The position numbers and the translations under genes are program-made. Below the pieces are notes generated by a model. That model searched no databases, had not been told where the DNA came from, and was given only the letters and a program-made list of their open reading frames with translations. Shown piece after piece: positions 4,902 to 11,335 of a stretch of DNA of 39,381 bases. The DNA comes from Planctomycetota bacterium (lineage in GTDB: Bacteria > Planctomycetota > MHYJ01 > JACPRB01). Numbering within the stretch: the stretch's first letter is position 1; each line of letters begins with the position of its first letter. The DNA lies in assembly GCA_035574235.1 (NCBI GenBank), contig DATLZA010000061.1, forward strand, positions 1-39,381, read 5' to 3'.

Positions 4902-4907
4902 TAGAAT
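4902..4907 (+). promoter_or_regulatory. possible -10 element (TAGAAT) of the peptide gene
   Basis: TAGAAT lies 7 bases before the GTG start of the 51-aa peptide gene, in the 28-base gap after the DUF1501 stop. The surrounding bases resemble the element before the gene at 10337 (TAGAATT, then a G-rich spacer, then GTG). No convincing -35 hexamer is seen at the right distance, so this is tentative. Confidence 0.35.
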
Positions 4908-4914
4908 TAGGCGG

Positions 4915-5070
4915 GTGGAGAAGAAAGAGAAGACCCGGAAGCCCTACGCGCCTCCCCGCATCCGCACGGAGAGGGTCTACGAGCGGCGGAGCCTGGCCTG
5001 TGGAAAGGTGCAACCGCCGTTCGGCCAGCGCCCTCCGGCCTCCTGCATCGGCAACTTCCGCAATTCCTGA
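4915..5070 (+). CDS. candidate RiPP precursor peptide (51 aa, two Cys)
   Basis: A small frame from GTG (4915) to TGA (5068-5070) encodes 51 residues. The N-terminal half is highly charged (KKEKTRK) and contains Y11-A-P-P14-R-I16, a match to the YxxPx[L/I] leader motif bound by PqqD-like recognition elements in lasso peptide precursors. The C-terminal half is less charged and holds the only cysteines, C29 (in SLACGKVQPPFG) and C44 (in PPASCIGNFRNS), with a Pro/Gly/Gln-rich spacer. It lies 5 bases before a PqqD-like gene, which overlaps a radical SAM/SPASM gene. This order of small Cys peptide, recognition protein and radical SAM enzyme is what one expects of a RiPP locus. A likely leader/core boundary is around residues 26-28, but no GG or other protease site is clear. 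The missing protease and transporter and the weak ribosome-binding site leave room for doubt. Confidence 0.65.
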   Translation: MEKKEKTRKPYAPPRIRTERVYERRSLACGKVQPPFGQRPPASCIGNFRNS

Positions 5071-5075
5071 AGCTC

Positions 5076-5339
5076 ATGCACAAGCTGCGCCGCGATTCCC
5101 GCTGGCCGTTCCAGGAGATCGAGGGACAGGTGGTGGTTCTCGTTCCCCCGCGGCGGGAGGTGCACCAGCTCGACGAGGTGGGGACTTTCGTCTGGAAGTG
5201 CCTGGAGGCCGAGCGCACGCTCGAGGAGATCGTGGCCGCCGTGTGCGGGGAATTCGACGTGGAGGAGGAACGGGCCCGCCGGGACGTCGCGGAGTTCCTG
5301 GCGTCCCTGGAAGAAAAGGGCCTCCTCGTCCGGGCATGA
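5076..5339 (+). CDS. PqqD-like peptide-binding (RRE) protein
   Basis: An 87-aa protein of the PqqD superfamily. Its length and pattern fit the fold: a beta-hairpin N-terminal part (EGQVVVLVPPRREVHQLDEVG), then W/C residues and a helical region (TLEEIVAAVCGEF, RRDVAEFLASLEEKGLL). The segment HQLDEVGTFVWKCLE corresponds to the conserved PqqD segment usually written LNETGxxIW. Family members bind a RiPP leader peptide and present it to a modifying enzyme, usually a radical SAM protein. The ATG at 5076 follows the peptide stop by 5 bases, and its stop overlaps the next start as ATGA (5336-5339), so stoichiometric co-expression is expected. It probably binds the peptide encoded at 4915-5070. Because it is a stand-alone domain, other clients are possible. 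Confidence 0.85.
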   Translation: MHKLRRDSRWPFQEIEGQVVVLVPPRREVHQLDEVGTFVWKCLEAERTLEEIVAAVCGEFDVEEERARRDVAEFLASLEEKGLLVRA

Positions 5340-6406
5340 GCGCGCCGGAGTGCGGAGTTCTCGGGCCGCTCCAGGAGCGCGCCTACGAGGCGTGCATTCC
5401 CCTCGGCGTCAGCCTGGAGATCACCCTGCGCTGCAACATCCGCTGCACGCACTGCTACAACTTCGATCGCGGGGTCGCGCGGTCGGCTCCGGCTCCGGAG
5501 CTCGGGATGGAGGAGCTTCGGACGCTCCTGGACGATCTGCGGCGGGCGGGGACGCTTTTTCTGGCGCTGACGGGCGGGGAGGCGCTCGTTCATCCGCGCT
5601 TCTGGGAGATCCTGGACGAGGCGGCGGCGCGGGCGTTCGCCGTCCAGCTTCTGTCCAACGGGACGCTGCTTTCGGAGCGCGTGTGCGACCGTCTGGCGGC
5701 CTACCCGAATTTCTGGGGGGCGAGCCTCAGCCTCTACGGAGCGCGGCCGGCCACGCACGACGCGATTACCCGTTCCCGGGGCTCGCTCGAGCGGACCTGG
5801 GCGGGGGCCGAGCGGTTGCGCGCGCGGGGAGCGGCGGTGTCGCTCAAGTTCATTCTCATGAAGGGGAACGCGGCCGAAACCGCGGAGGTCCTCGAACGGG
5901 CCGCCGCGCGGGGGTTTGCGTGCGACGTGGACGCCACGATCACGGGCCGCTACGACGGGACGCGGGGGAGTCTTTCGGACCGGGTGGACCTGGAGACGCT
6001 GCGGGAGCTTTACGCGGGTCCCCTGCGTTCCCGGGTCGGGGGACGCCGGGCGGTGGGCTCGGACGACGACTTCCGGTGCAATTGCGCGCGGGGGAACGCC
6101 GCGGTTTCGGCTTCGGGGGAGGTGTATCCGTGCATCGCGGCGCCGGTTCCCGCCGGGAACATCCGGGAGCGGTCGTTTCTGGAGATCTGGAAGGAGTCGC
6201 CCGTCTTCCGGTGGATCCGGGGACTGCGGACGCGGGACTTCCAGGCCTGCGCGCCGTGCGCGCTCAAGGAGTGGTGCCGCCGGAGTCCGGGTCCGGCGTA
6301 TCTTCTGCACGGGGACTACACGGGAGTGGATCCCTGGACGTGCGGGGAGGCGGCGATTCTGAAGGAGCTGGAGGAAGCGGACGCCGGACGTCGGGCGCCG
6401 CGGTAG
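5336..6406 (+). CDS. radical SAM/SPASM peptide-modifying enzyme (candidate)
   Basis: 356 aa. The radical SAM core has C33-N-I-R-C37-T-H-C40 (CxxxCxxC, 4Fe-4S and SAM binding) and the glycine-rich TGGE motif. The C-terminal SPASM-like region has C248, C250, C266 in a C-x10-G-x4-C spacing, then C305-x2-C308-x5-C314 and a final C336. The Cys normally expected four residues after C314 is replaced (CRRSP), so one auxiliary-cluster ligand differs from the textbook SPASM pattern. SPASM enzymes typically install C-C, thioether or similar links on ribosomal peptides. The ATG overlaps the PqqD stop and a 51-aa Cys peptide lies just upstream, so that peptide is the obvious substrate, by inference. The reaction cannot be told from sequence: thioether, C-C crosslink or epimerisation are all possible. 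Sulfatase-maturase-type activity is less likely, as no sulfatase is nearby. Confidence 0.88.
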   Translation: MSAPECGVLGPLQERAYEACIPLGVSLEITLRCNIRCTHCYNFDRGVARSAPAPELGMEELRTLLDDLRRAGTLFLALTGGEALVHPRFWEILDEAAARAFAVQLLSNGTLLSERVCDRLAAYPNFWGASLSLYGARPATHDAITRSRGSLERTWAGAERLRARGAAVSLKFILMKGNAAETAEVLERAAARGFACDVDATITGRYDGTRGSLSDRVDLETLRELYAGPLRSRVGGRRAVGSDDDFRCNCARGNAAVSASGEVYPCIAAPVPAGNIRERSFLEIWKESPVFRWIRGLRTRDFQACAPCALKEWCRRSPGPAYLLHGDYTGVDPWTCGEAAILKELEEADAGRRAPR

Positions 6407-9029: not shown

Positions 9030-9044
9030 TAGGGTTCCTGCGTG

Positions 9045-10247
9045 ATGAAGGACGAAAAAGGCGCCCAGCTGAACCTGAGGGAGGCCTGCGGAGTGGGCGG
9101 GTCTCCGGAGGCGGTCGTGGTCGCTCCGGACGGCTCGAAGCTCTTCGTCCTGGATGCCGAAGAGGGCCGCGTGAGCGTGGTGGGCGTCTCGCGGATGCTC
9201 CTTCTGGGGCGGATTCCGGGCGCCTTGGCTCCCGGCCGGGTCCGGGTTTTGCGCCCGGGCGGTCGCCGGAGCGTTTACTGCGCGGGGGTCGGGGGAGAGC
9301 TGGCGATCTTCGACCTGGAAGGCGAGTCTTCCCGGAAGCTCGTGGATTGCGGAGGCGGCACGTGCGACCTGGGGGTTCTTCCCGGGGAACGGTGGGCGGT
9401 GCTCACCGTCTCCTCGGGCGGGACGGGGGCCGCGGTGAAGGCGAGCGCGAGGGACCTTTCCGCTTCGGACTGGGTGGCGTTTCCGGGCTCGCCCCGGCCG
9501 GGAACGCTCCGCCTGGCTCCGCGGCTGGGTCTGGGGGCGGCCGTTCTCGCCGGCGAAGAGGGCCGACCCGAGATGCTGGCCGTATGGACGCTGGAGCCTT
9601 TCGCCCCTCTTTTCACGCTGCCTCTGGACGGGGAATGCCGCGCGTTGGAGTTCGGGGCCTCCGGGGGGATCCTCTTCGTGGGGGCGACCGGGGAGGAGGA
9701 AGTCCTGGGGGTGGACCTGGGGACCCGCCGGGTCGTCCGCCGGTTCCGGATGGCGGGGCGACCGTTCGGCCTGGCGGCCGACCCGGCCGGGCGGTCCCTG
9801 TGGGCGCTCTGCGAGAACCTGGGGCATCTGGCCGCCCTGGACCTGCGTCGCGGGGTCGTGGCGGCGCGCATCCCCCTGGAAGGCGTCCGGGCGGGGGACA
9901 GCCGCATCCTTCCGAGCCCCGAAGGCCGGCTGGCGCTCGTGGCCGAGCCCGCGGCGGGCAGCGTTTCCCTCGTGGAGCTGCGCCCCGGCGAAGGCCGGCC
10001 GGCGGCGCTGGTGGATCGGCTGGAACTGGGCCGGCAGGTGACCGAAGCGGCGTGGAGCCCCTTCGGGGACGAGGTGTACGTGACGGACCGGGAGCTCGGC
10101 GCGGTCCTGGCCCTCGAGGTCGATCGCTCCGGCCTGCGCCTCAAAGACACGGACGAATACCTGATCGAGCGGCTCCTGGAGACGGAGTCCGAGGACGTCC
10201 CGCTGGACGAGCCGTTCGATCCGAAAAATCCCCTATTCCCTCCTTAG
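9045..10247 (+). CDS. YVTN-type beta-propeller protein, sigma-54 dependent
   Basis: 400 aa from the ATG at 9045; the GTG at 9042 is an equally possible start, adding one residue. The sequence is a run of beta-propeller blades of roughly 40-50 residues, with recurring phrases such as PEAVVVAPDGSKLFVLDAEEG, PFGLAADPAGRSLWALCENLG and ITEAAWSPFGDEVYVTDRELG-like units, resembling YVTN/YncE-type propellers. There is no signal peptide or TM segment, so it should be cytoplasmic, unlike many propellers linked to exported enzymes. Its C-terminus is acidic, then ends FDPKNPLFPP. It is preceded immediately by a consensus sigma-54 promoter and followed by a strong hairpin, so it looks monocistronic. No catalytic residues are recognisable; a scaffold or binding role is the reasonable guess. 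Confidence 0.75.
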   Translation: MKDEKGAQLNLREACGVGGSPEAVVVAPDGSKLFVLDAEEGRVSVVGVSRMLLLGRIPGALAPGRVRVLRPGGRRSVYCAGVGGELAIFDLEGESSRKLVDCGGGTCDLGVLPGERWAVLTVSSGGTGAAVKASARDLSASDWVAFPGSPRPGTLRLAPRLGLGAAVLAGEEGRPEMLAVWTLEPFAPLFTLPLDGECRALEFGASGGILFVGATGEEEVLGVDLGTRRVVRRFRMAGRPFGLAADPAGRSLWALCENLGHLAALDLRRGVVAARIPLEGVRAGDSRILPSPEGRLALVAEPAAGSVSLVELRPGEGRPAALVDRLELGRQVTEAAWSPFGDEVYVTDRELGAVLALEVDRSGLRLKDTDEYLIERLLETESEDVPLDEPFDPKNPLFPP

Positions 10248-10336: not shown

Positions 10337-11335
10337 GTGAGTCTCCTCGGGCGCCTCTCCGTGGTCGGCGCGCGCCGGACGCTTCCCGCTCCGCCGCCCG
10401 CGGGTCTGCTGGATCGCGCCCGCCGCGAGCGCACGCTGCCGGTCGTCTGCCGAAACCTCGGAATCCCGTGTTCGGAGGAATCCTCCATCCTCGCCCGGCA
10501 GCTCTGGGCGGTCCGCCAGGCGCGCGAGATTCTTTCCGAAGTCGAAGCGCTCCCCCTCAAGGGACTTCACCTGGCGCACCGCCTTTATCCTTCGCCCGGC
10601 CTGCGCGACATGGGAGACATCGACCTTCTGGTCCGGCGGGAGACGGTGGTCGAGGCCGACCGGACGCTTCGGCGGCTGGGGTATGTACCCGAGCGCGATC
10701 CGCGTCCGTCTCTTGAGGTCCCGGACGCGTGGGTGAACTCGGTCCTTTACGCCCGCGGGCGCGACCTTCCGGTCCACCTGCATTGGGATGTGCGGAACGG
10801 ATCGCTTCCAGGGTTCATGGTGCGGATCGACCCGGAAGAGATCTGGCGGGAGCGCGACGGCGGCGGGATGGCGCCGCATCACCTGCTGGTGACGCTTTGC
10901 GAGCACGCGCTCAAGCATTCGTACGATGCGCTCGTCCATCTGACGGACATCGAGCTGGCGGCCCGGGCGGTGCGATGGGAGCGCGTGGAAGAGGTCGCGC
11001 GGCGCTGGGGTCTGGAGCGGGCGGTCTACTTCGCGCTTGTCCTGGTCCGGGACCTGCTGGGGGTGGAGACGCCGGGGCTGAAGCGTTTCCGGCCGGCGGG
11101 GGACGGTCCGGCGGCGCAGGCGTTTCTGGCGTCCGCCCGGCGGCGCCGGTGGGTGGGACTTTCGGCGCTGGGCTATCTTCTGCTGGCGGAAGGACCCGCC
11201 GGAAAGATCCGTTTTCTTCGGGAGATGTTTCGTCCGCCGCGGGGCGGTCCGGGATTGCGTTCGCGGACCGCCGGGAGCCGCCTGCGCCGGGCGGTGGAGC
11301 TGGCGTGGCGCGGGCTTACTTCGCCGCCGGGGTAG
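10337..11335 (+). CDS. NTP_transf_5-like nucleotidyltransferase
   Basis: 332 aa. The central motif LKGLHLAHRLYPSPGLRDMGDIDLLV fits the PF14907-type family: the LKG phrase, then a G-D-I-D-L metal-binding pair. H-W-D in HLHWDVRN further on also fits. Family members belong to the Pol-beta-like nucleotidyltransferase fold and are often found in exopolysaccharide and RiPP (including lasso peptide) loci, where they may modify a product or a carrier; the substrate is not defined. The GTG start is supported by TAGAAT six bases upstream and by similarity starting soon after. Its last 20 bases overlap the end of rpsT on the other strand. It lies 4 kb from the PqqD/radical SAM genes, so a link with them is possible but unproven. 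Confidence 0.78.
   Translation: MSLLGRLSVVGARRTLPAPPPAGLLDRARRERTLPVVCRNLGIPCSEESSILARQLWAVRQAREILSEVEALPLKGLHLAHRLYPSPGLRDMGDIDLLVRRETVVEADRTLRRLGYVPERDPRPSLEVPDAWVNSVLYARGRDLPVHLHWDVRNGSLPGFMVRIDPEEIWRERDGGGMAPHHLLVTLCEHALKHSYDALVHLTDIELAARAVRWERVEEVARRWGLERAVYFALVLVRDLLGVETPGLKRFRPAGDGPAAQAFLASARRRRWVGLSALGYLLLAEGPAGKIRFLREMFRPPRGGPGLRSRTAGSRLRRAVELAWRGLTSPPG

Follow-up and report, generated by a model that had tools for sequence, protein, structure and literature searches.

A putative RiPP system of Planctomycetota that pairs lasso-like recognition and tailoring with a radical SAM/SPASM enzyme

What becomes of a 51-residue peptide whose gene sits directly ahead of those for a PqqD-like protein and a radical SAM/SPASM enzyme, and which other enzymes act on it? 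The question is raised by a stretch of 39,381 nucleotides from a Planctomycetota bacterium (GenBank assembly GCA_035574235.1, contig DATLZA010000061.1), the whole of which is referred to as the window. Based on the comparative evidence presented here, we consider it quite probable that the peptide is the precursor of a RiPP with a lasso-type chassis (YxxP leader, PqqD-like protein, C-terminal Ser kinase), whose Cys-containing core is modified by the radical SAM enzyme in place of a lasso cyclase. What would be new in such a system is that recognition and tailoring of the lasso kind come together with core modification by a radical SAM enzyme. Coordinates are those of the window, and its own genome is labeled G000.

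Gene unit and its conservation

The unit consists of three genes, given here with the two predicted parts of the peptide:

4915..5070, + strand: precursor peptide, 51 aa, (M)EKKEKTRKPYAPPRIRTERVYERRSLACGKVQPPFGQRPPASCIGNFRNS (ORF; leave-one-out HMM; conservation beside homologous enzyme)
4945..4962, + strand: Y11-A-P-P-R-I16, YxxPx[IV] leader motif, predicted to bind PqqD (Y11 and P14 invariant in alignment A1)
4993..5067, + strand: L27-A28-C29-G-K31 to C44 to S51, predicted leader end and core (A28, C29, K31, C44 and S51 invariant in A1)
5076..5339, + strand: PqqD-like leader-binding (RRE) protein, 87 aa (PF05402, E 7e-21)
5336..6406, + strand: radical SAM/SPASM peptide maturase, 356 aa (PF04055, E 1.9e-19; SPASM PF13186, E 2.1e-11)

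Five bases separate the stop codon of the peptide from the PqqD gene, and the ATG of the radical SAM gene at 5336 overlaps the PqqD stop codon (TGA, 5337-5339). The tight packing described in a first-pass annotation is thus borne out by the ORF coordinates; its three-gene layout stands, but the start that it gave, 4902, lies 13 bases upstream of the GTG start codon at 4915.

An HMM built from seven relatives, with the window peptide left out, recovers the 51-aa frame in a six-frame search of the window at E 9.5e-19, the second-ranking ORF reaching only E 0.98. This conservation rules out a spurious ORF. In relatives, homologous enzymes adjoin peptides 39-54% identical to that of the window. 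No Pfam or NCBIfam family covers the window precursor, and nine relatives' peptides scanned in NCBIfam matched none either, in agreement with the earlier statement that the peptide matches no known RiPP precursor class.

The enzyme was searched in 59 genomes (the window's own and relatives), and 12 of them, including the window's own, contain a strong match. Within the family of the window, G000, G001 and G004 possess the peptide, the enzyme and a kinase discussed below; in G002 and G003 peptide and enzyme are both missing, and the kinase search gave no strong match. Loss of the frame alongside retained PqqD and radical SAM genes, the pattern that the first-pass annotation named as speaking against the pathway, was therefore not observed, since the frame is kept with the enzyme in three of these genomes and both are absent from the other two. 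The conservation that it named as support, that of the frame and of C29 and C44, was recovered. Peptide conservation with the enzyme and their joint absence support the proposed peptide/PqqD/radical SAM pathway, which is, on this comparative evidence, a real and conserved unit of predicted RiPP type.

Precursor family and radical SAM enzyme

The peptide family was found by reading short ORFs around strong enzyme matches, and its core set, alignment A1, comprises eight rows (the window and seven relatives), among them the peptides from L022 (MTEKRKRPYKPPSIRTEKVFERRALACQKVKPPIPIVPPPCRGVYKLS) and L025 (MDKKLKSKKKYQPPRVKTEQVFEQNALACGKTKPQTAGCQRALKTS). Besides the residues listed above, T18, E19 and E23 are invariant. 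The annotation had proposed a possible undescribed RiPP pathway; this holds in that no precursor family is matched, but Y-x-x-P-x-I belongs to a known type of leader motif, read by PqqD-like proteins in lasso and some other systems, W/Y/LxxP recognition sequences being common to those of lasso, PQQ and sactipeptide systems (PMC12710340). The top NCBIfam matches of the PqqD-like protein are lasso models with scores below cut-off, the first being the lasso PqqD model NF033536 (E 1.6e-10).

From C29 on, only Cys, Lys, Cys and Ser are conserved in A1. C29 is preceded in the core set by a small residue, then Leu/Ile, then Ala, a pattern reminiscent of signal-peptidase-type sites and in keeping with the S24/S26-type protease that relatives have; A28/C29 is thus a possible point of leader cleavage. 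The second Cys and a terminal Ser are present in all 14 peptide-model hits outside the training sequences. In 13 of these the scored alignment stops short of the C-terminus, yet all 13 end in Ser, against a background of 11% among six-frame ORFs here; counting one hit per genome (8 genomes), the chance of this is about 3e-8. No family peptide was recognized beside the enzymes of L021, L023 and L030. At L074:7856-8506, a family peptide makes up the C-terminus of an ORF of 212 aa, the N-terminal part of which resembles a retropepsin-type aspartyl protease (DTGSPYTFV); this may be a fusion, or a family peptide with an internal start.

The enzyme carries the radical-cluster motif CX3CX2C (C33/C37/C40) and SPASM cysteines at C248, C250, C266, C305, C308, C314 and C336. 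Combining structure match with sequence profile, the nearest PDB folds to its AlphaFold2 model (pLDDT 87.4) are those of SkfB, PqqE, SuiB and CteB, all RiPP maturases. Alignment A3 reveals two SPASM Cys layouts. The first has Ser317 and is found in the window enzyme, L017, L018, L020 and L021, Bdellovibrionales included; the second has Cys255 and Cys317 (L013, L023-L027, L030). The window enzyme has the C248-x-C250 pair and no Cys255. With Ser317, one site of an auxiliary cluster could stay vacant and so accept a substrate Cys thiolate. A Cys-centered cross-link is the likeliest of the bonds that the enzyme might form. Searched against plasmids, a family peptide and the kinase gave no match, and the enzyme found only matches of 26-27%.

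The kinase and the larger cassette

Two further genes of the window's genome come into consideration:

G000:C130:18876-19643: HprK/PEPCK-type kinase, on another contig than the peptide
10337..11335, + strand, in the window: NTP_transf_5 nucleotidyltransferase (PF14907, E 2.5e-29)

The kinase is 52% identical to its copy in G001, where the gene lies directly upstream of the peptide. In the cassettes of L024-L027, the kinase has a Walker A motif and weak matches to HprK-related, ScmC and PEPCK models, and its AlphaFold2 model (pLDDT 90.8) matches PEPCK structures, a fold also shared by HPr kinase. The kinases of this group keep H117, K134 and D149, the latter followed by E150. Compared by description of the set, this is H-K-D then Glu, where the lasso kinases have H-K-D-D and act on a C-terminal Ser (PMC9266682). 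PadeK, ThcoK, SyanK and PsmK phosphorylate this residue in lasso precursors, and PsmN, an annotated nucleotidyltransferase, is needed for placing a hexose on the phospho-Ser (PMC9266682); an HPr kinase gene has also been noted in lasso clusters (PMC4289311).

Across 392 Planctomycetota genomes, the peptide model (E<1e-3) and the kinase model (E<1e-35, a cut picked after the ranking was known) each find 12 genomes, of which 11 are shared (Fisher p 2e-19). When the genomes that trained either model are set aside, four genomes with the kinase and five with the peptide remain, and the four are all contained in the five (p 5.6e-9); these p-values are indicative, because the genomes are related. In six draft assemblies (G000, G004, G006, G180, G193, G262) kinase and peptide lie on different contigs, so their co-occurrence is not simply a by-product of neighborhood. 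In G269, next in the kinase ranking, the cassette is complete, and its YxxP peptide, though more divergent, likewise ends in Ser (L122). The co-occurrence also suggests that tailoring kinases of the lasso type exist outside lasso clusters. The retention of the terminal Ser, together with the action of lasso kinases at this position, is the main ground for the phosphorylation proposed here.

The three genes put forward as the pathway thus belong to it, but they are not its full extent: the kinase belongs too, joined in many relatives by a protease and a nucleotidyltransferase, and the window triple is, as far as gene content indicates, the minimal version, with its genes dispersed, of a larger system. 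In L024-L027 the genes run in the order peptide, kinase, protease, PqqD, radical SAM. The protease of the relatives matches Peptidase_S24 and signal-peptidase models (S24/S26-type); none was found at E 1e-5 in G000, G001 and G004. The more distant cassettes L119, L120 and L122 contain PqqD, kinase, radical SAM and PF14907-like genes. Outside Planctomycetota, the members found are two Bdellovibrionales loci (L017, L018) with PqqD, protease, radical SAM, kinase, PF14907-like, methyltransferase and ABC transporter genes, and with a Ser-ending peptide adjoining the kinase. PF14907-like genes also lie in or by the cassettes of L025 and L027. The window nucleotidyltransferase is a possible tailoring enzyme of the unit, the link being uncertain; the PF14907 family is widespread in the class.

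Several other genes recur around these loci. In the window, the nucleotidyltransferase gene lies about 4 kb downstream of the radical SAM gene and is preceded by a YVTN-like propeller gene (9042-10247). SAM-dependent methyltransferase genes in or by the cassette (L020:7020-8090, PRMT-like; L017:3383-4162; L018:3262-4134) suggest a further modification in some members. An apparent PqqD fusion of 402 aa in L020, to which a 412-aa ORF in L028 is similar, is a frame artifact, the likely true upstream ORF being the PRMT-like methyltransferase. Upstream of the precursor in L025 (4390-5097), L026 (3385-4080) and L027 (9707-10348) is a gene whose product has HEAT repeats and, at its N-terminus, a hydrophobic segment. 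Giant secreted proteins are encoded directly upstream of precursors, or flanking them, at L020:2-7017, L072:3833-6713, L073:7973-10987, L074:7856-13999, L121:7819-11959 and L076:85-4458. Two of these proteins (L121:8540-11959, L072:4008-6713) end in a Gly-rich stretch, a Cys, a hydrophobic segment and Arg (..SGGGCFVREIGRQGPFGVVFLWVAGLLLWVGRRR in L121), an arrangement like a C-terminal protein-sorting signal.

Known systems, alternative readings and the proposed pathway

The closest likeness is to lasso systems with a tailoring kinase (paeninodin PadeK, ThcoK, SyanK, pseudomycoidin PsmK/PsmN), with which the unit has in common a YxxP-type leader, a stand-alone PqqD/B1-like protein, a PEPCK/HprK-type kinase, a conserved C-terminal Ser and a nearby annotated nucleotidyltransferase. 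It differs in having a radical SAM/SPASM enzyme instead and, in relatives, also the S24/S26-type protease. A lasso peptide proper is ruled out, the transglutaminase-like B2 leader peptidase (PF13471) having no match in the whole window genome; no asparagine-synthetase-like cyclase was recognized among the neighboring genes read.

Among the uncharacterized cassettes, SynChlorMet (NCBIfam ScmC, ScmD, ScmE, ScmF) likewise combines PqqD, radical SAM/SPASM and HprK-like proteins. Membership is ruled out, as ScmD (E 4.6e-8, 33.2 bits against a cut-off of 100) and ScmE (E 1.6e-28, 99.6 against 400) score far below their curated cut-offs; the L024 kinase reaches 25.9 of 125 bits with ScmC (E 5.6e-6). 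The HPr-rel-A system (HprK-related kinase A, PqqD_rel_X), uncharacterized in NCBIfam, has similar kinase and PqqD types, with scores below the cut-offs, and no radical SAM model of that system matched. GeoRSP is ruled out as well (PqqD 37.6 of 100 bits, radical SAM 69.6 of 400).

Could this be an ordinary sactipeptide or ranthipeptide-type system, with Cys thioethers as the product of the enzyme, and with a kinase and a nucleotidyltransferase whose roles lie elsewhere? Such systems (SkfB, CteB, AlbA) have in common with the unit the maturase fold and a Cys-bearing core, the thioether being only predicted here. The two invariant Cys, the sactisynthases SkfB and CteB among the nearest solved folds, and Ser317, which could open the auxiliary cluster to a substrate thiolate in the window's clade, all fit this reading. 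However, the kinase tracks the peptide across the 392 genomes even when unlinked, and a pure thioether peptide would not need the invariant terminal Ser; we therefore regard this alternative as improbable, though the strongest of those considered. The AlbA and StsB models score far below cut-off against the window enzyme. A C-terminal Ser kinase is, to our knowledge, not part of sactipeptide or ranthipeptide systems.

Alternatively, the modified peptide might associate, as a small partner, with a giant surface protein such as a secreted beta-propeller; the cross-linked gamma subunit of quinohemoprotein amine dehydrogenase would be a loose parallel. Precursors are located directly downstream of giant propeller/NHL/PQQ_2/PKD/FN3 genes in L020, L072, L073, L074 and L121, and a functional link to giant secreted proteins is possible on this gene order. 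Yet the window peptide follows a gene whose 473-aa product is of another kind, the precursors of G193 and G180 do without the pattern, and neighborhood alone cannot show interaction; as a general account, this reading is distinctly unlikely.

Least probable, to the point that we give it little credence, is the reading in which the peptide is turned into a small redox cofactor, in the manner of PQQ or mycofactocin: the PqqD and PqqE-like radical SAM pair and the presence of PqqE among the closest structures speak for it, but there is no conserved Glu-Tyr or Val-Tyr pair after C29, all PQQ and mycofactocin models are under cut-off, and the several diverse precursors per genome in G004, G006 and G193 are a poor fit to a single cofactor. 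Membership in the PQQ system (PqqE 78.4 of 381.35 bits, PqqD 37.2 of 46, no Glu-Tyr core) and in that of mycofactocin (radical SAM 105.5 of 265 bits) is ruled out; the peptide ends in RNS, and the missing PqqA core and mycofactocin VY end had been correctly read in the first-pass annotation.

For the RiPP with a lasso-type chassis that we favor, the following scheme is proposed. The PqqD-like protein would grip the Y-x-x-P-x-I leader and present the C-terminal part of the peptide to the radical SAM/SPASM enzyme, which would act on it close to or at the two conserved Cys, most likely by forming a thioether or another Cys-centered cross-link. By analogy to PadeK-type kinases on lasso precursors, the HprK/PEPCK-fold kinase would phosphorylate Ser51, and the PF14907 nucleotidyltransferase may then decorate this phosphate. 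In relatives the cassette is completed by the S24/S26-type protease, probably the leader peptidase, of which the window's genome has no clear copy. In the open-access literature searched, no paper was found to describe a family of RiPPs in which radical SAM chemistry goes together with a C-terminal Ser kinase. More tentatively, and with doubt outweighing confidence, these loci may represent a distinct RiPP class of Planctomycetota and Bdellovibrionales, namely radical-SAM-modified Cys peptides with a phosphorylated, possibly nucleotidylated or glycosylated C-terminal Ser, whose precursors would be matured in trans and are in several cases encoded beside giant beta-propeller proteins, their possible partners.

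With more than 25 sequences and a clear motif, the precursor family makes this chemistry open to direct test. If true, the proposed pathway would bring together radical SAM core chemistry and lasso-type phosphorylation of a C-terminal Ser, two RiPP toolkits so far encountered apart from each other, in a phylum with few characterized peptides.
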